A DNA stretch of 64,000 nt from Gammaproteobacteria bacterium (GTDB lineage: Bacteria > Pseudomonadota > Gammaproteobacteria > Pseudomonadales > Azotimanducaceae): positions 1-64,000 of the forward strand of contig JAPOTJ010000048.1 of the NCBI GenBank assembly GCA_026709225.1. The letters run 5' to 3'. Below, one piece after another: positions 46,925 to 54,867 of the stretch. The position numbers and the translations under genes are program-made. The notes beneath the pieces were generated by a model. It was not told the origin of the DNA. It was given only the letters and a program-made list of their open reading frames with translations, and made no database searches. Numbering within the stretch: the stretch's first letter is position 1; each line of letters begins with the position of its first letter.

Positions 46925-47082
46925 GTTGTTGTCTCCTTGGCCTTCCTCAGTTGGCAACGAAATCGGGCAGGCCGGGCCGCGCAGGCTGCGGGCACAGGCC
47001 GGTCAGGTCGTTACTTAGGAAGAACAAGCGATGCAACGCTTTTCCCGTTCATGGACTGTGGCCCGGTCCCTGAACGAACGAC

Positions 47083-47243
47083 GCGATGGCAGGTCTCCTG
47101 GCTCGCCGATCAAGACTTGTCGGCCGCCTTCCCGGAGATCACTCCAGTGGCATAGTGGCCGCAAGCTTCTGGCTTACAGTTGCGGGTACAGCCCCGGCTT
47201 CGCACCGGGTTCCCTTTTAACTACTTATGTGAGTAGCACCATC
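47083..47243 (-). ncRNA. cobalamin riboswitch
   Basis: On the minus strand the leader reads GGTGCTACTC, then AAAAGGGAACCCGGTGCGAA, GCCGGGGCTGTACCCGCAAC, TGTAAGCCAG, a variable arm with CACTGG and CCGGGAAGGCGGCC, and it ends in GAGCCAGGAGACCTGCC. These are the conserved B12-box and core elements of a class I cobalamin riboswitch. It ends about 160 bases before the btuB ATG, so it should control the seven-gene operon. Confidence 0.95.
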
Positions 47244-47251
47244 TGCCGAGC

Positions 47252-47280
47252 ATTCTAGGAACTGGCTGGAAAGGTGTCAA
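47252..47280 (-). promoter_or_regulatory. sigma70 promoter of the btuB-cobD operon
   Basis: On the minus strand TTGACA (47275-47280), a 17-base spacer and TAGAAT (47252-47257). The predicted start, about 47244, falls exactly at the beginning of the riboswitch. The remaining DNA up to 47462 has no gene or clear signal. Confidence 0.85.
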
Positions 47281-47462
47281 CCTGTTGTCCCGGCTCAGGA
47301 CATTTCGAAATTTTAGGCCGACCACGCCAAGTTTAACCAATAGGCTGGACGCAACAGATGCAAACGCCGCATCAAAGTGCTGCACCAGCATATCCAACTC
47401 AAAATGGTGGTAAAGATATAAGGCTTAAGAGGACATTATTGACACTGAGCCCACTGCTACCC

Positions 47463-48620
47463 TTATGTAGCACATGAGCTCAGCCACCTCCGGTACTCAG
47501 AAATATCGTAGCCAGCCTTGTGAAGGATATCTTCCATCTCAGCAATAAGCTCGTCTTGCAGTTCCACATTGCCCTTCAGCAATAGATCAACATCCTTACG
47601 CTTCGCTGTACGCCTAACGATTCCTTTCGCGATCTCACATTCATCGAATGGCTGAGGCGGAGTCGGGGACAGCGCATTTTGTGCCGGCACAGTGATCGGC
47701 TCGCATCGGAGTGCGAAGGAGACGAGGTCTTCACAGCTCGCGCTCTCTGCGACCTTATAGCCCAGAATGCTTGCCAACACTACCTTGCTACCTCTTGTAG
47801 CTTGAATGAGTTTCGCGAGCCATTTCCCCAAAGCAACGATCATGAGCTTAAGGTAGTCAGTATCGCTGCGATCAGAGGAATCAATAGTAGTTGCATCAAG
47901 TCCTAAATGTTGCTGACACTCGTCGGCGAATCCGTCGCAATTGCATATGTTGTCGCGGAACCGTTCGAGAATCTCCGCCTCGGCATCTCTATTGAACTGT
48001 TCGACACCGATTCGGGTCGTGATTAGCAGCAGCCACGGCTCTAAGTTATGCCCTTGTAAGGTGGTAACATGGGCCAATGCATTATAGAGCGAGCGGCTTT
48101 CCGTGGGGGAGTCGGTCGCTAAGCCATCGCAAAGGTCGACATTCACAACATCAAATGGACCAAGTGATTTAGCGCGTTGCCATGCGATCGAAGAGGTGGC
48201 GCTCAAGCACCGGAAGTCATCATGGAGCACTCGTGACTTCTTCTCATGAACATTGGGCAATCTGTTCAATTGGTAAAGTGAAATGTCGAGCTCATGTCGC
48301 GCTGCGCTGTTTGGATGCGCTACTGAACAAAACCCAAGAAAAATTAACTTGCGATCCGTCGGAATACATACCTTGTCGTGGAGGTATCTCAGCTCAACGA
48401 GGTCTGTGCCAGGTAGGCCCAAATACCGAATCGGAGCACAGGGATCTCGATCATCGAAAAGGCGCTGAATCTGCTTAATCCATTGCTCCCGACGCACGAA
48501 TTGTTTCCTTGGACGGTGCCACGGCTTGAATTCCCGCTCGCGATGTTCGGCCAGATCGTAACTATGATCACCAAACATGTCCGCGACAGATTCGTTTTCG
48601 TCGCCTATCTGATCGTTCAC
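47463..48620 (-). CDS. unknown 385-residue protein linked to GHKL ATPase
   Basis: Not recognised as a named family. An N-terminal FKPWHRPRKQFVRREQW (about 31-48) looks like a conserved nucleic-acid-binding patch. The middle region (YLGLPGTDLVELR, LIFLGF, FDVVNVDLCDGL, PWLLLITTR) has the alternating strands of a Rossmann-like fold and could be a divergent SAM-binding domain, but no canonical glycine-rich loop is intact. The GTG start shares one base with the upstream stop (TAGTG). Probably the effector or regulatory subunit of this operon. Confidence 0.8.
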   Translation of the reverse strand: MNDQIGDENESVADMFGDHSYDLAEHREREFKPWHRPRKQFVRREQWIKQIQRLFDDRDPCAPIRYLGLPGTDLVELRYLHDKVCIPTDRKLIFLGFCSVAHPNSAARHELDISLYQLNRLPNVHEKKSRVLHDDFRCLSATSSIAWQRAKSLGPFDVVNVDLCDGLATDSPTESRSLYNALAHVTTLQGHNLEPWLLLITTRIGVEQFNRDAEAEILERFRDNICNCDGFADECQQHLGLDATTIDSSDRSDTDYLKLMIVALGKWLAKLIQATRGSKVVLASILGYKVAESASCEDLVSFALRCEPITVPAQNALSPTPPQPFDECEIAKGIVRRTAKRKDVDLLLKGNVELQDELIAEMEDILHKAGYDISEYRRWLSSCAT

Positions 48621-50578
48621 TATACGGTCACCTGAAGAATTTGAAGAATTCTGGACAAAAGGCGCTCCTGCTGCTGCTCTGACAAACTCTCTAGCACACC
48701 GAACGCTGCAAGTAGCTGAACGAGCGCCTGCATCTGCCTCTCGATCCTCGGTGTTGCAATCGTTTTATTGCCAACGGTCTCTTGACCGAAAATCGGTGCA
48801 CGACGGAACTGGTAGGTGCTAGAGTCCTCAATCTCTGATTCGGGACCACCCTGCCCGAACACTACAAGCGGTGGCTCTGCGCCGAGGTCGTCTGCCTCCT
48901 CTTGCCAAGCCTTTCGGACGATACCCGACATCGTAGCCTCGGTCTTGGCTGCGGCAGCTATTCGATGCTCATCCCGAATTTCGCTAGCAATTCGCTTCTG
49001 CTCGGTTGCGACGCGCCGAAGAGCGGCGTGCAGCCATCTCGTGAGGTACACGACATGTGGATGCGCGAAGTTGAACGACTCCCGGTCGATATTCAACGCA
49101 GCCTCAAAGCCTTGGGATACAAACACCTCACAAGTGATCTGCTTAAGGCGAGTTTGTTCGGACACTTGATAGTGCATGAAAGTTGGATCGAACAGTGTCC
49201 CGCTGGAGCCATGCACTCGAACGAGGACACCTCGGTGCTCGGTGGGCGCGATTTTCGGGGTCCAAATCAAATATGCCTCGAATTTAAGTGAGCCTCCCGA
49301 GACCTCGCGAGGAACATCGGGAAAGTCCTCGCTACAGCTACCTACAAACAAAAGGGGTTTGCGGATGGCATGGGCGGTGGTCGGTAGGCCTGAGAACTTG
49401 ATAGGGCGGGTAAGGCGCAGCTCGTCAACGAAAACCGCAAAGTCTCCACCATCGCGGGCCCCCTCTCCGATCGACCGAGTGGCCACTATCGTTTCTCCAT
49501 TGCCGAGATCAAAACGCTTGGCCGCTGCCTTAAGGTTTTTCGGCATTTCATAGAGGTACATTTGATCGCTGATCGCCATCTCAAAAGGACTCTCGAAGAC
49601 ATAGGGCACAGGTATGGCCAAGCTAAGCCGCCAAACCATGCGGAGGTAGTAATCAAAAATGTCGTCAAGCTTTGGGTTCATTGACGTGCCCTCGACTTGT
49701 TGCCAGACGGCGTCAACCAATTTCCTGAACGCAGAATCGGAATCGTCTTCTGGAGTCCATGGAAGTCGATCGTATTGGTTCTCGTGGCCTTCAAGACTTG
49801 AGGGGTCTCCCTCTTTTACCCGTCCAATATGAAATTTGGGCGGTTCGATAGCACGCATCCCCTCGGATCCTAACGAGGGGTCTGCGTCTATGTTTGCCCA
49901 CAAGTCGGCACTGCGAAGCGTGTTACGGGTGTTGGGTCGGATATTGGTTAGGGTAAGGGTGGTGCCATGAGCCTCTAGACTCGAAGCCGGCTCGCGCCAG
50001 ATCTTCACAAGGCCTGCTTCGCGCTCTTCCGCCTCAGCCAACTCTGGCGAAACCTCTTCCGAATATTGGCGCATCACGACCGACGCGACGGTGAGCCAAT
50101 TATCTCCTGCGGTTTTAGTGACAATGTGAAATCGGTTTGTTAACTGACTTACAGAGAATAAGCCTATACCGATCTTACCGATAAGCCGACGACCTTTTGG
50201 GCTAAGCATGGGATCGTCAGGATTGGCAATACCTAAACTGCTGCCCCGCACTGATCTTTTCGCGCTCCCTCCAATATGTTTGAGCATGTAGGCAAGTGCA
50301 TCGGGTGCCATGCCTCTACCGTCATCTTCGATCGTTATCGTCTCGAACCTCGGCCGATCGGTTTTGATGATCACTTGGGTCGCGTCAGCGTCATATGCAT
50401 TCGAAACGAGCTCTCTAATAGCTGACTCCGGCTGCCGGTATATGCCATCGGTAACGCGCGCGAGCACGCGTTGATCAGTCTTCAGACGGGTGTCGACGGG
50501 GCTTTCTCGAGAGCTCGCCTTGATACGATCACTCAAATCGGCATCCGTATTCACCTGAGTTTTGGGGATCGTGCTCAC
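48620..50578 (-). CDS. GHKL-type ATPase (MORC/MutL/Hsp90-like)
   Basis: 652 residues from a GTG that overlaps the methyltransferase stop as GTGA. The ATP-binding Bergerat fold is clear: RELVSNAYDADA (55-66, N box), IEDDGRGM (83-90) and KIGIGLFSVSQL (135-146). A following S5-like transducer with VRVHGSSGTLFDP and NIDRESFNF is expected for MORC-like proteins. The C-terminal ~100 residues are charged and partly helical. MORC/MutL-like ATPases are known in restriction-modification loci, where they are thought to drive DNA remodelling. Confidence 0.88.
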   Translation of the reverse strand: MSTIPKTQVNTDADLSDRIKASSRESPVDTRLKTDQRVLARVTDGIYRQPESAIRELVSNAYDADATQVIIKTDRPRFETITIEDDGRGMAPDALAYMLKHIGGSAKRSVRGSSLGIANPDDPMLSPKGRRLIGKIGIGLFSVSQLTNRFHIVTKTAGDNWLTVASVVMRQYSEEVSPELAEAEEREAGLVKIWREPASSLEAHGTTLTLTNIRPNTRNTLRSADLWANIDADPSLGSEGMRAIEPPKFHIGRVKEGDPSSLEGHENQYDRLPWTPEDDSDSAFRKLVDAVWQQVEGTSMNPKLDDIFDYYLRMVWRLSLAIPVPYVFESPFEMAISDQMYLYEMPKNLKAAAKRFDLGNGETIVATRSIGEGARDGGDFAVFVDELRLTRPIKFSGLPTTAHAIRKPLLFVGSCSEDFPDVPREVSGGSLKFEAYLIWTPKIAPTEHRGVLVRVHGSSGTLFDPTFMHYQVSEQTRLKQITCEVFVSQGFEAALNIDRESFNFAHPHVVYLTRWLHAALRRVATEQKRIASEIRDEHRIAAAAKTEATMSGIVRKAWQEEADDLGAEPPLVVFGQGGPESEIEDSSTYQFRRAPIFGQETVGNKTIATPRIERQMQALVQLLAAFGVLESLSEQQQERLLSRILQILQVTV

Positions 50579-52059
50579 GCTGCGTCCAATGACTTCAGGA
50601 GTTGTCGAGCGACCGCCTCTGAGAGCGCAGGAGGGACGGCGTTCGCCACTTGCAGTGGTTGCGTGGAGCGCGGACCGCAAAAGAAGTAATCGTCAGGGAA
50701 GCCTTGGATACGGGCGGCTTCGCGAACTGTAATCGTGCGGTCTTGATACGGATGCACGGGCAAAGCACGATGTCCCGCCACCAAGGTTCGTGCGACATCG
50801 CTTCCGAGTCGCCTATATGAAATTGGGCCTGCGCCTGCCGGGATCCCTCTGATTTTCGCGATCACTTTTGGAGAATGAGACATCGCCTTGGAGTTAAGCA
50901 CAATCCGGCCGTCCGGGATCTCGAGTCGCTCTGCTCCTGTGCCAGCTAAGAGAGGAGGCAGGTCTTTCAGTCGCTCTGCTAATGAAGGGGTCCGTGGCCG
51001 TAACGGATCAGATGCTGGGCCGTCGGTTGGCATATGTGTAGGCAGCGGAGGTTTAGGCAAAGTTATATCATGTTTTACGCCTATGAAGAAGAGCCGCCGA
51101 CGATTCTGTGGCACGCCAAAATCGGACGCTCTAAGGGCAATAGGCTGTTTCCAAGTCCGATATCCACATCGCCGCATGGAAGCAGTGATCTTGTCGGTAT
51201 AGATGACCCCGTTGACCCGGCGTACCCCGGGAACATTCTCGATCACAATTGACCGTGCACGAAGTTGTTTAGCGAGACGACCAACATGTCGGAAGAGTAG
51301 GTTGCGCCGGTCATCTAGGTTGCGTGAACCGGCAGCCGAATACCCTTGGCACGGGGGGCCTGCAATGATCGTTGTTGGTGCAGTAAGGTTCGGCAGCCAT
51401 AACCGTAAGTTTTCTGCCGTGACTTTCTCAACGGAAGCTTCAAGCACTGGAACACCGGGGTGGTTCAGCCGATAGGTTTGGGCTGCGTTTCGATCAATCT
51501 CAACAGCCGCGACAACGCTAAAGCCGGCTCTTCTGAAACCGAGCCCGAGCGCACCGGCACCGCCGAAAAGATCAACGGCGGTAGCACTTTTTGTGTCAGA
51601 AACGGTCCGACTTCGACCAGTTTCGCAGAACGACACCAACGGACAGATCGAACAGCGAGGGGCATCTTTCACGCATGCCCTGCGGCTATGGATTGCAAGG
51701 CACCGAACTAGCCTAACGCGATCACGCTCCGGCGCCATATGCACGAATGATTTGAAATCACCGGCGGCTATGCGCCGGAGCATTCGATTCACATGCCTAT
51801 CAGCATTGATCTGTTGCTCGAAATGCAATGTGTAGGACCCTCCGACCTCTCCTTCACAGTCGGTATCTGGTGATGCCAAAGAGATAAGCTGCGCGTGGTT
51901 TCCGGCGAGTGCTGTAGTGTTTCTAGAATAACCCGTAGAAACATATCCGTGGCTATTCTGACTGTCTGCGTAGGTCGCTCCGAGAAGCTCGTTCACCCGC
52001 ACGGAGAGCGCACGCAAAGACAGGGAGCCGAGGCCGGCCGACGCAGCACATTTAGCCAT
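50575..52059 (-). CDS. cytosine-5 DNA methyltransferase with N-terminal endonuclease III-like iron-sulfur domain
   Basis: 494 residues from the ATG at 52059; a TTG at 52134 would add 25. Residues 160-494 are a complete m5C methyltransferase: AVDLFGGAGALGLGF (motif I), GPPCQGYS (catalytic Cys 237), ENVPG (motif VI), QNRRRLFFIG (VIII) and the motif X region VANAVPP. Residues about 40-150 look like an HhH-GPD glycosylase: INADRHVNRML carrying the Asp (87), HSRRAC, and C-X6-C-X2-C-X5-C at Cys129, 136, 139 and 145, the 4Fe-4S loop spacing of endonuclease III. The lysine-bearing HhH hairpin is degenerate. Such a domain could act on deaminated 5mC mismatches or only read DNA. Confidence 0.88.
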   Translation of the reverse strand: MAKCAASAGLGSLSLRALSVRVNELLGATYADSQNSHGYVSTGYSRNTTALAGNHAQLISLASPDTDCEGEVGGSYTLHFEQQINADRHVNRMLRRIAAGDFKSFVHMAPERDRVRLVRCLAIHSRRACVKDAPRCSICPLVSFCETGRSRTVSDTKSATAVDLFGGAGALGLGFRRAGFSVVAAVEIDRNAAQTYRLNHPGVPVLEASVEKVTAENLRLWLPNLTAPTTIIAGPPCQGYSAAGSRNLDDRRNLLFRHVGRLAKQLRARSIVIENVPGVRRVNGVIYTDKITASMRRCGYRTWKQPIALRASDFGVPQNRRRLFFIGVKHDITLPKPPLPTHMPTDGPASDPLRPRTPSLAERLKDLPPLLAGTGAERLEIPDGRIVLNSKAMSHSPKVIAKIRGIPAGAGPISYRRLGSDVARTLVAGHRALPVHPYQDRTITVREAARIQGFPDDYFFCGPRSTQPLQVANAVPPALSEAVARQLLKSLDAA

Positions 52060-52243
52060 GGACAAGCTATCCGTTTGGTTGTGATTCCGAGTTTCGGAAT
52101 GCAGGTTATCGCGAAGATTGGGCAAGCGCAACAACTCGCTTTTCGTGTACTAGAGGCGTGTCAAATAGTTGCGGGGCGACACGCTTTCCCTTAGCATCTT
52201 TGGATGGCAACTGTTGGGGTGAGCATTGGTCGAGGAAATTGTC

Positions 52244-53926
52244 ATGCCGACTCTAAACACTAGTTGTCAACAGGCACTCCGCAATGTAAACAGCTTTGGC
52301 GAAGCGTCACTAAACAGTAACGTCGATCTGCGAGAGATTCCAACGCCTGTTCGCGGAGAGCGTCCCACCGAATACGCTAATCGCGTGGGAGAATGGTATG
52401 TTGAGCATAGATCGGACGCTCATCGAAAAGAACACGGTTTGTATCTCACTCCGATCGCTGTGGCGGATTACATGGGGAGCGATCTTTGTGGCAAACGAAA
52501 AAAACTCCGGCTCCTTGATCCAGCAGCAGGCGCTGGGATCTTGATTTGTGCAGCTGTTGAGGGTATGGACTCATGCACCCAGCGGCTAGAAGAAGTCCAT
52601 GTTGTTGCTTACGAGATCGATCAGCAGCTGGCGGCGGTTCTTGAGGTGGTGCTCACAAATCTTGCTGCATGGTGCGAAAAGGCACATAGCTTTAAGTTGC
52701 GAACTACGATCTACCCGGAAGACTTTGTTTTAAAGCACTCACGAACGCTAGATGCCTCAGAAACGCTATTCTCGGAGTCATCGAGCGAACAACTATTTGA
52801 TCTGATTGTTTCCAATCCCCCGTACTTCAAACTTCCCAAGAGCGACCCTAGATCAATAGCCGCTGCATCAGTCGTTCACGGTCAGCCTAACATCTACGCG
52901 CTATTCATGGCGGTGAGTGCAGCCATGCTGCGGCCGCACGGAAATATGGTGTTTATCGTGCCCCGCAGCTTCGCTTCGGGGCCATATTTCTGCAAGTTTC
53001 GAAGCGTGTTCTTCAAGATGATCAAGCCAGTGCATGTGCATGTCTTCATCTCTAGGCGGGCAACCTTCTCTCGTGACCGAGTGCTTCAGGAAAACATAAT
53101 CCTGTTTGGATCCAGGGATGAGCAGTGGCATGCAGTCGACGGGTCTCAGTGGCTGAAAATCACCTCAAGCAACGGTAGTGGAGACTTGGCAGAGGCCGAG
53201 CATCATTTAGTCCCTTTGAGCAATTCACTTCGGCTAGATTCGTCCCAAAAGGTTTTGCGGCTTCCGCTCAACACCGATGATGATGCAGTTCTCGATGTTA
53301 TTGACTCGTGGGCATACACGCTTGCTAGCTTCGGGCTGAACATTTCGACGGGCCCTGTTGTTCCGTTTCGAGCCAACGAATTCATAGACAACAAAGGAAA
53401 TGTTGCGAGGGGACATGTCCCCCTACTTTGGATGAACCATGTCAAAGCGCTTGAAGTTCGATGGCCTCTCAATCAGCATAAGCGCGAATTCATACGCAGT
53501 GCTAGCTCAGACTCCATACTGGTGGAGAACAAAAACTACGTGCTGCTCCGCAGGTTTAGCGCGAAGGAAGAAGCTAGAAGATTGATAGCTGCTCCGTACC
53601 TGTCGTGTCACTACCGCACGCAAAAAGTCGGATTTGAGAACCATCTCAACTACATTCACCGATCAGGAGGTGAATTAAGTCAAGACGAGGCGTGGGGTCT
53701 TGCGGTCTTATATAGCAGCGCGCAACTAAATAGCTATTTCCGCATAGTGAATGGCAATACTCAAGTGAGTGCGACAGAGATTCGTGCTTTGCCGTTGCCT
53801 TCAATGGAAACCATCAAGGCAATAGGCCGAGCAGTTAGAGCGTTGCCCGATCCTTTAGCCGAAGTCGATGCGATTACGTCAACATTCATCCCTTCGTTTC
53901 GGTCAGCGCGAACCCTCCGTGGCTAG
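52244..53926 (+). CDS. BsuBI/PstI-type adenine-specific methyltransferase
   Basis: 560 residues from the ATG at 52244, seven bases after GAGGA. HGLYLTPIAVADYM, LDPAAGAGIL (motif I, 91-100) and VSNPPYFKL (NPPY at 191-194), with a C-terminal target-recognition region. The following gene encodes a BsuBI/PstI endonuclease, so the enzyme should protect CTGCAG-type sites; specificity is inferred from the partner. Confidence 0.92.
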   Translation: MPTLNTSCQQALRNVNSFGEASLNSNVDLREIPTPVRGERPTEYANRVGEWYVEHRSDAHRKEHGLYLTPIAVADYMGSDLCGKRKKLRLLDPAAGAGILICAAVEGMDSCTQRLEEVHVVAYEIDQQLAAVLEVVLTNLAAWCEKAHSFKLRTTIYPEDFVLKHSRTLDASETLFSESSSEQLFDLIVSNPPYFKLPKSDPRSIAAASVVHGQPNIYALFMAVSAAMLRPHGNMVFIVPRSFASGPYFCKFRSVFFKMIKPVHVHVFISRRATFSRDRVLQENIILFGSRDEQWHAVDGSQWLKITSSNGSGDLAEAEHHLVPLSNSLRLDSSQKVLRLPLNTDDDAVLDVIDSWAYTLASFGLNISTGPVVPFRANEFIDNKGNVARGHVPLLWMNHVKALEVRWPLNQHKREFIRSASSDSILVENKNYVLLRRFSAKEEARRLIAAPYLSCHYRTQKVGFENHLNYIHRSGGELSQDEAWGLAVLYSSAQLNSYFRIVNGNTQVSATEIRALPLPSMETIKAIGRAVRALPDPLAEVDAITSTFIPSFRSARTLRG

Positions 53927-54854
53927 CGTCGAAGAAGCCAAAGAAATTCTGAAGGCATTGGGAATGCCCCCTGCTCAGCACAATGAAATGTCTGGATTGA
54001 CCTTGCTCGCCCTGTGCGGAATGACGGCGACCAAGCCTTGGTCCGAAGCAACGCGAAAGCGATGCACTGTAACCAAGGGCATAATGGATTACGTCAGAGA
54101 GCAATACGGTGCCGATTACGCCCCGAACACCCGAGAAACTTTCAGACGCCAGGTGTTGCATCAATTTTGTCAGAGGAAAATCGCCGACTACAACCCATTT
54201 GAACCGAGCCTGCCAACCAACAGCCCGAGAGCGCATTACGCGATTTCTGAAGCGGCCCTTGCGGCGATCAGATTATACGGAAGTGAAGCGTGGACCCGTG
54301 TAGTCGCGGAGTTTCACAGCGTTCAGCGAGTGGAGTTGGACTTGTACGTTCGCAGCCGCGAACGCCACATGGTTTCGGTTAAGCTGCCAAACGGACGAGA
54401 CGTGACTTTGTCGCCAGGCAAACACAACGTGGTTCAAAAAGCCATTCTTGAAACGTTCGCTCCTAGATTCTGCCCCGGCGCACAGCTTCTTTACCTTGGA
54501 GATACGGCGAAGAAAGATGTTTTTACAGATGAGGCAGCGCTTCGTCGATTAGGGATTTCGATCAATGAACACGGCAAGCTCCCTGATGTCCTGCTTTACG
54601 ACGCTGAACGGAATTGGCTATTCCTTGTTGAGGCTGTGACATCGCATGGGCCGATGTCGCGGAGCAGGGTTCTATTTTTGCACGACATGCTGAAGGCGGG
54701 GTCGGCGAAACCGGTCTACGTAACAGCTTTCCCAGACTTTCAGGAATTCCGCAAGCACGTCAACGACATCGCATGGGAAACAGAAGTCTGGCTTTGCGAA
54801 GCTCCGGAACATATGATTCATTTCAACGGCGACCGCTTCTTAGGGCCCCGGTAG
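53919..54854 (+). CDS. BsuBI/PstI-type restriction endonuclease
   Basis: Type II endonuclease, about 311 residues. GTG at 53919 gives VASVEEAKEILKALGMP, the family's usual start, and overlaps the methyltransferase stop; an ATG at 53868 gives a longer form. The C-terminal nuclease region has KLPDVLLYDAERNWLFLVEA and VTSHGP, the strongly conserved block of BsuBI/PstI. Both genes of the pair appear intact. Confidence 0.92.
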   Translation: MASVEEAKEILKALGMPPAQHNEMSGLTLLALCGMTATKPWSEATRKRCTVTKGIMDYVREQYGADYAPNTRETFRRQVLHQFCQRKIADYNPFEPSLPTNSPRAHYAISEAALAAIRLYGSEAWTRVVAEFHSVQRVELDLYVRSRERHMVSVKLPNGRDVTLSPGKHNVVQKAILETFAPRFCPGAQLLYLGDTAKKDVFTDEAALRRLGISINEHGKLPDVLLYDAERNWLFLVEAVTSHGPMSRSRVLFLHDMLKAGSAKPVYVTAFPDFQEFRKHVNDIAWETEVWLCEAPEHMIHFNGDRFLGPR

Positions 54855-54867
54855 CTGTTCCATCCAT

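Follow-up and report, generated by a model that had tools for sequence, protein, structure and literature searches.

A GHKL ATPase and a predicted methyltransferase-fold protein form a near-obligate gene pair, commonly beside an m5C DNA methyltransferase, in a putative mobile defence module

The DNA analysed here, referred to as the window, is a stretch of 64,000 nucleotides from a Gammaproteobacteria bacterium of the family Azotimanducaceae (assembly GCA_026709225.1, contig JAPOTJ010000048.1, positions 1 to 64,000 of the forward strand), and on its minus strand lie three successive genes for a 5-methylcytosine (m5C) DNA methyltransferase, a GHKL ATPase and a protein of 385 residues (Table 1). 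An initial annotation, made from the letters alone, had put these genes forward as a three-gene candidate defence operon with overlaps of 4 and 1 bases. The coordinates bear out both overlaps, the first of which is GTGA (methyltransferase/GHKL gene) and the second TAG/GTG (GHKL/385-residue protein gene). The end proposed for the gene set, position 52059, holds as an internal ATG start that would give a methyltransferase of 494 residues, but the longest open reading frame (ORF) reaches a TTG at 52134 and encodes 519 residues. The new facts reported here are the near-obligate pairing of the GHKL and 385-residue proteins, the predicted methyltransferase fold of the latter and the Hsp90-like nature of the predicted ATPase. 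Our favoured reading, to which we give a probability of about 0.5, is that the three genes constitute a mobile restriction-modification-like module in which the methyltransferase would act as ‘M’ and the GHKL–385 pair as ‘R’, these functions being assigned from sequence and structural models.

The 385-residue protein is a member of NCBIfam family NF047698 (E 1.2e-103; 347 bits against a cut-off of 200), which NCBI names ‘PP_RS20740 family protein’ without a function. This family is rare: two of the 369 genomes compared from the class have it and two of the 398 from the phylum, both counts including the genome of the window itself. When 84,980 species, each represented by a single genome, were scanned with a pattern-based profile, at least 70 loci emerged. 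The association between the genes was analysed in a set of 86 loci that remained after removal of repeats, the window included and several of them closely related. Of the 86 loci, 84 have a whole or partial GHKL gene next to the 385-residue protein gene and in the same orientation. The two genes overlap in 63 of these 84, and in 47 the overlap is precisely 1 or 4 bases long; ten of the GHKL ORFs in this set are short because of a frameshift, a truncation or the end of a contig. The two exceptions were an N-terminally truncated homologue beside which tblastn detected no GHKL remnant (L043) and a fragment at L089, where the contig ends 86 bases away. As these were the only members found outside this context, the concern that the family might occur mostly elsewhere, which the initial annotation had raised, can be set aside. 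The same pairing was seen in viral contigs of IMG/VR, from which the 385-residue protein profile retrieved 19 contigs and the GHKL profile 18: all 18 of the latter carry a 385-residue protein gene (at L098 recognised only with a hidden Markov model), and a GHKL gene is present on all 17 contigs, from the 19 found with the 385-residue protein profile, in which the match lies away from the contig start. Our first viral scan with the GHKL protein had given 45 loci, comprising 17 of this family and 28 that carry a distant GHKL protein (no more than 60 bits) and no 385-residue protein.

When pairwise distances were compared across the 60 complete loci, the correlation was 0.896 between the GHKL and 385-residue proteins, as against 0.505 between the GHKL protein and the methyltransferase and 0.524 between the 385-residue protein and the methyltransferase; these values include the phylogeny common to the loci, so that the contrast between them is informative rather than their size. 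Shuffled distances gave correlations near 0, with a maximum of 0.16. Gene order and divergence thus indicate that the GHKL–385 pair is one near-obligate unit and the methyltransferase a looser, more exchangeable module.

The methyltransferase belongs to PF00145 (E 9e-48), and its PC, ENV and QxRxR motifs were present at all 60 loci, the window among them. At 59 of the 67 fully flanked loci (those flanked by 1600 bases or more on either side) an m5C methyltransferase gene lay within 2 kb of the pair; 38 of these genes were upstream in the same orientation as the pair, 19 were convergent with it and 2 divergent. The co-occurrence of the three families was therefore confirmed by a search of genomes; the three-gene operon as such holds in the window, but elsewhere the arrangement with the methyltransferase gene upstream on the same strand is limited to those 38 loci. 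The eight remaining loci had an intact pair, and in none of them was a methyltransferase fragment found beside it; at three of these (L032, L034 and L039), NOV_C, HNH or SNF2 genes lie beside the pair. Conversely, a short GHKL or 385-residue protein ORF accompanied a whole methyltransferase ORF at the fully flanked loci L021, L081, L082, L087 and L105, to which frameshifts in draft genomes may have contributed. The methyltransferases of the window, L020, L021 and L024 carry a long N-terminal extension with a C-x6-C-x2-C-x5-C motif; in all of these but L021 it amounts to about 170–190 residues. The spacing of its cysteines resembles that in the Fe-S loop of EndoIII/MutY, and the match to the Pfam model EndIII_4Fe-2S was not significant (E 0.26).

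The GHKL protein matches the Pfam model HATPase_c_3 (E 2e-15), as do all 72 of the sequences compared. Its structural model, built from 72 sequences (predicted local distance difference test, pLDDT, 87.0), had as its closest folds TRAP1/Hsp90 (Z 17.5), MORC3 (Z 16.7), topoisomerase VI-B (Z 15.8) and MutL (Z 15.5), so that MORC3 is not singled out, Hsp90, MutL and topoisomerase VI-B scoring alike. These matches span about residues 32–536 (the MORC3 alignment covers 297 residues), and the part beyond residue 500 is modelled as one long helix plus a small region at the C-terminus. Counting from the residue that follows the GTG, E55, N59, D62, D84, G86, G88, G102, G103, S104 and K106 were invariant in all 72 sequences, as were G133, G136, I137 and G138. 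The same was true of N495, D497, R498 and E499, a group that in our estimation resembles the catalytic loop of Hsp90. No nuclease model matched more than one of the 72 proteins, the single match being to UvrC_RNaseH_dom (E 0.0016). The window's protein also matched REase_II of PADLOC (E 4e-6), over the GHKL domain, and phrog_6203 of PHROGs (E 7e-19), a family without an assigned function. We conclude from the model and its conserved residues that the protein is a predicted ATPase of the Hsp90/MORC/MutL type, with a GHKL plus S5 module.

For the 385-residue protein, Pfam gave no match above its cut-offs and PADLOC none at E up to 1, and a search of PDB sequences with the family profile returned one match, at E 0.19, that was taken as chance. 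The initial annotation had pointed to an N-terminal PWHRPRKQ patch and a Rossmann-like core. Both are real, and structural searches with a model built from 76 sequences (pLDDT 93.1; predicted template modelling score, pTM, 0.90) narrowed the core to a class I methyltransferase fold. The best Foldseek match in the PDB was the DNA adenine methyltransferase M.BseCI (E 8e-6); alignment with VIA-align placed the tRNA methyltransferase Trm1 first (3axs; Z 14.5, root-mean-square deviation 4.2, 232 residues aligned), and the best 50 matches listed were S-adenosylmethionine (SAM)-dependent transferases of the same fold or GRAS proteins. Searching a viral fold library gave methyltransferases mixed with other proteins (best E 1e-5). 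These structural matches cover residues 26–311 well and barely test the helical C-terminus. On the strength of the model, then, the protein has a class I Rossmann-like methyltransferase fold. We rejected the possibility that it is a known nuclease, as the 76 family members were without a Pfam nuclease match and the folds listed were of the methyltransferase type or GRAS. The statement in the initial annotation that the trio lacks a recognisable nuclease likewise stood up, none being recognised in the three proteins by Pfam, NCBIfam, PADLOC or PHROGs.

Conservation within the family points to a functional surface on this fold. Residues W34, H35, K39, R43, N160, D162 and Q189 are invariant in all 76 members, and P70, G71, D73, D76 (E in the window), G96 and C164 are kept in 73–75 of them; to judge from the topology, the conserved residues that follow strands 1, 2 and 4, together with the N-terminal patch, would lie on the SAM/substrate side. 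It is conceivable that the system defends without cutting, the 385-residue protein being catalytically active and using SAM to methylate foreign DNA or other nucleic acid once the GHKL protein releases it, with replication or expression blocked in a BREX-like manner. Such a role would suit the fold, the predicted placement of the conserved residues and a trio in which no nuclease was recognised, but it is hard to square with the motifs: the loop after strand 1 reads L-P-G-x-D, unlike the usual glycine-rich motif, and the end of strand 4 reads N-x-D-x-C, which fits neither (D/N)PPY nor PC, the methyltransferase motifs found at that position. Moreover, the Pfam methyltransferase models matched none of the 76 members at E up to 0.1. 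Because the strand 1 loop departs from the usual motif, we consider SAM binding by a protein with such non-canonical motif I and IV positions plausible only, and defence by methylation of the invader rather doubtful. Still less probable is abortive infection by a Trm1-like modifier of tRNA or rRNA that is held in check or triggered by its Hsp90-like partner. Trm1 does give the best structural alignment, yet its Z score exceeds that of the next match, a different methyltransferase, by only 1.4, and 849 of 1000 chains reached Z of at least 8. Membership of the Trm1 family itself was rejected, since the Pfam TRM model PF02005 matched none of the 76 members at E up to 0.1, whereas it found matches in eight of 14 control genomes and so is a working model.

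Among systems already described, the trio is best read, from gene content and domain composition, as akin to the MORC/paraMORC, BbrUII/HgiDII and HEF_HK loci, paraMORC1-5 and HEF_HK having been compared by description. MORC and paraMORC GHKL proteins have been reported from restriction loci together with m5C methyltransferases, Vsr and nucleases, and DNA looping has been proposed for them (PMC2292703, Iyer, Abhiman and Aravind 2008; this and the other papers cited are drawn on in part). The present trio has in common with these loci its mobility and an ATPase with GHKL and S5-type domains in the neighbourhood of m5C methyltransferases, Vsr, HNH and restriction-endonuclease-fold nucleases, but it differs in its methyltransferase-fold partner, none being described in the parts of that account used here (PMC2292703). 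The S5 domain of MORC is stated to carry a GhXhhpXXRhl motif and paraMORC5 an HxH motif (PMC2292703); the latter has a possible counterpart in the H-P-H of the present GHKL proteins at positions 505–507, which is strongly but not fully conserved (H505 in 70, P506 in 66 and H507 in all of 72 sequences). Superfamily II helicases are reported in about 70% of MORC neighbourhoods (PMC2292703). An SNF2 helicase lies beside L034 and a relative of it beside L033, helicases not having been searched for systematically.

The BbrUII/HgiDII family (NF050001), by its NCBIfam name a restriction enzyme, similarly places a GHKL protein beside an m5C methyltransferase, and the sole member above the cut-off that we encountered (L129, 684 bits) has a Vsr gene as well. 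BbrUII/HgiDII is, however, a single GHKL protein, and no counterpart of the 385-residue protein was found within that of L129. We rejected the window's GHKL protein as a member of this family, as it scored 62 bits against a cut-off of 550 and over the GHKL domain only, and alignment with L129 by hhalign was confined to 115 columns of that domain. The idea that the 385-residue protein is a split-off BbrUII C-terminus was also discarded (15 columns, probability 1%). At L118 and L133 we observed BbrUII-like GHKL proteins in which a TIGR02391 (ymh) domain replaces the BbrUII C-terminus.

Loci of the HEF_HK and Response_reg_2 type comprise an m5C methyltransferase, a GHKL/histidine kinase protein, a response-regulator-like partner and Vsr (PMC8011034, Bellieny-Rabelo et al. 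2021), a composition that the present loci resemble in their m5C methyltransferase, GHKL protein, partner gene and Vsr. The main HEF_HK architecture, HATPase_c_3 plus HEF_HK plus a C-terminal HATPase_c, accounts for 174 of 222 proteins, with a minor group lacking the C-terminal domain (PMC8011034). Unlike the main group, the window's GHKL protein has no second, C-terminal HATPase_c, its sole HATPase_c match overlapping the N-terminal HATPase_c_3, and its partner has a predicted methyltransferase fold. The Pfam models HEF_HK and Response_reg_2 matched none of the 72 GHKL proteins and none of the 76 partners, an absence that says little, since two look-alikes also gave no match. These look-alikes (L110 and L117) have a distant GHKL protein with a second HATPase_c at the C-terminus, a partner gene without Pfam matches and Vsr and m5C methyltransferase genes nearby, and they resemble HEF_HK loci without confirmation from Pfam. 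Finally, VcSduA, a Shedu protein with a GHKL domain, likewise ties a GHKL ATPase to an anti-phage effector (PMC12137116); there, a PD-(D/E)xK nuclease is fused within one protein, and the parts of that report drawn on describe no methyltransferase partner. Among the papers listed by searches of the open-access PMC literature, we recognised none that names a system with these three families, which, with the functionless NCBI entry for the 385-residue family, speaks to the question raised by the initial annotation of whether the operon had already been described.

The surroundings of these loci bear out the defence-like setting that the initial annotation had suspected. A Vsr-like ORF was found by phmmer in 19 of the 86 loci, at L088 only as fragments next to the block. 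Of the 28 viral loci with a distant GHKL protein and no 385-residue protein, 11 have one too. Pfam matches among the 145 nearest ORFs, counted over the first 25 of 109 families listed, included Vsr (14), phage integrase (9), NOV_C (3), HNH models (2) and phage portal (2), along with one MvaI/BcnI and one NgoMIV; ten chosen neighbours did not include the MvaI and NgoMIV matches. PADLOC, over the first 25 of 158 families, gave single matches to DRT2, HmaB, AriA, LmuB and a type IV enzyme; some of these matches may come from a single protein. The upstream neighbour at L013 is a P2-type phage replication protein, and L013–L015 have portal-like downstream genes in common, to which we attribute the two portal matches. 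In four related viral contigs (L100, L101, L103 and L105) an ORF that by eye looks like an integrase immediately precedes the trio, which may mark a site for cargo.

Table 1. Positions in the window of the three genes, their conserved elements and the adjoining BsuBI-type system
Feature	Position	Strand	Remarks
385-residue protein, NF047698 family, predicted class I methyltransferase-like fold	47463..48620	-	GTG start
385-residue protein, N-terminal patch, residues 33-47 (PWHRPRKQ...QW)	48480..48524	-	W34, H35, K39, R43 in 76/76
385-residue protein, loop after strand 1, residues 66-76 (Y-L-x-L-P-G-x-D...D/E), SAM-binding motif I position	48393..48425	-	P70, G71, D73, D76 in 73–75/76 (position 76 is E in the window)
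385-residue protein, end of strand 4, residues 160-164 (N-x-D-x-C), motif IV position	48129..48143	-	N160, D162 in 76/76
Predicted GHKL ATPase, Hsp90/MORC/MutL-like, 652 residues	48620..50578	-	GTG start
GHKL ATPase, N-box (E-x3-N-A-x-D-A-D)	50384..50413	-	E, N and both D in 72/72
m5C DNA methyltransferase	50575..52134	-	start uncertain: TTG 52134 or ATG 52059
Methyltransferase, N-terminal extension, C-x6-C-x2-C-x5-C motif (possible Fe-S cluster)	51625..51675	-	also in L020, L021, L024
Neighbour, separate system: BsuBI-type adenine methyltransferase	52226..53926	+	Eco57I-type methyltransferase E 4e-12 (Pfam)
Neighbour, separate system: BsuBI/PstI-type restriction endonuclease	53868..54854	+	PF06616 E 7e-61

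The trio in the window is adjoined on the plus strand (52226-54854) by the endonuclease and methyltransferase of a BsuBI-type system, as the initial annotation had noted. We rejected the possibility that the trio is part of this system, which has its own methyltransferase; among the neighbour clusters listed, only the methyltransferase cluster included the window. Together the two systems occupy a block (47281–54863) with a guanine-plus-cytosine content of 0.51–0.54, against about 0.58, that is flanked by a btuB-like gene and ATP synthase genes. The flanks of the block match a genome of the same genus (84% up to 47280 and 88% from 54864), in which no DNA match to the block itself was found, and the block thus looks like a variable site. 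A cobalamin riboswitch (Rfam RF00174, 127 bits) lies at the edge of the island, at 47071–47258 on the minus strand, upstream of the btuB-like receptor gene. In a tree of the GHKL proteins, which to judge by the titles of the records spans nine phylum-level groups (Actinomycetota, Chloroflexota, Pseudomonadota, Bacteroidota, Planctomycetota, Acidobacteriota, Armatimonadota and Nitrospirota being among them) and many of whose members are metagenome bins, the window's protein nests among bins of Actinomycetota and Chloroflexota with 99–100 support in the Shimodaira–Hasegawa-like approximate likelihood-ratio test (SH-aLRT). Because of this nesting, the GHKL gene has probably been transferred between phyla, although contigs of foreign origin may have been binned with these genomes. 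Judged by sequence and gene neighbourhood, the trio is mobile and defence-like in setting.

Our current working hypothesis is that the m5C methyltransferase would mark host DNA, as suggested by its intact motifs and by the Vsr partners in relatives. The GHKL and 385-residue proteins are likely to form one complex, because their adjacency is fixed, their genes overlap and their divergence is matched. Within it, the fold and motifs of the modelled GHKL protein are those of an ATP-gated dimeric clamp of the Hsp90/MORC/MutL kind, and we suppose that it acts as one, while the 385-residue protein, which has a conserved pocket side and a basic N-terminal patch, would most likely contact nucleic acid and either read the methylation state or act on unmarked DNA. 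The step that stops the invader might be carried out by an unrecognised active site in the pair, by a nuclease that is recruited (some loci have Vsr, HNH or NOV_C) or by a block without cutting. A more specific version, which we entertain only tentatively, is a nuclease-free defence in which the Hsp90-like ATP clamp loads the 385-residue protein onto DNA or RNA lacking the m5C mark, the invader being stopped by a modification or a roadblock for which this protein is responsible.

Several observations weigh against reading the trio as a restriction-modification-like module. No nuclease is recognised in it, and the modelled fold of the 385-residue protein is that of a methyltransferase rather than a nuclease. 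The pair is intact at the eight fully flanked loci that have no m5C methyltransferase gene in the surrounding 2 kb; all eight genomes carry PF00145 elsewhere, but 10 of 14 control genomes carry it as well, so that its presence elsewhere has little weight. The window's 385-residue and GHKL proteins had no match by tblastn in phage and plasmid collections. With a relative from Pantoea as the query, three weak GHKL matches were obtained in plasmids, so the plasmid search works, and the same relative had no match in E. coli genomes, compared at the DNA level only. The search from the GHKL side covered viral contigs, phages and plasmids rather than genomes at large, and the same-genus genome is broken between contigs at the variable site, so that a clean empty site was not seen. 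Lastly, the sole experimental report that we found on the family concerns furfural tolerance and not defence: in the parts of it drawn on here, a Pseudomonas putida member acquired V338F after furfural adaptation, and its overexpression aided growth on furfural (PMC9630843). The emergence of a family member from such a selection, like the want of a recognised nuclease, would accord with an epigenetic role, the pair either controlling the m5C methyltransferase or reading the marks that it sets for gene regulation, but the patchy distribution, the carriage on viral contigs and the Vsr and integrase neighbours make a role outside defence improbable.

The restriction-modification-like reading therefore remains the one that we favour: the trio is real, conserved, mobile and defence-like as far as sequence comparison goes, and its anti-phage role is putative, as is the part of effector, for which the initial annotation had named the 385-residue protein as the only candidate. 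It was predicted in 2008 that GHKL ATPases beside DNA methyltransferases power restriction, and how they would do so has not been worked out for most of them (PMC2292703). The family named after a Pseudomonas putida gene now supplies a compact pair, spread over nine or more phyla, that joins a predicted Hsp90/MORC-type motor to a methyltransferase-fold partner. This pair may serve as a small two-protein system for asking how such motors make use of DNA methylation in telling self from non-self, a question that bears on the MORC proteins of eukaryotes too.

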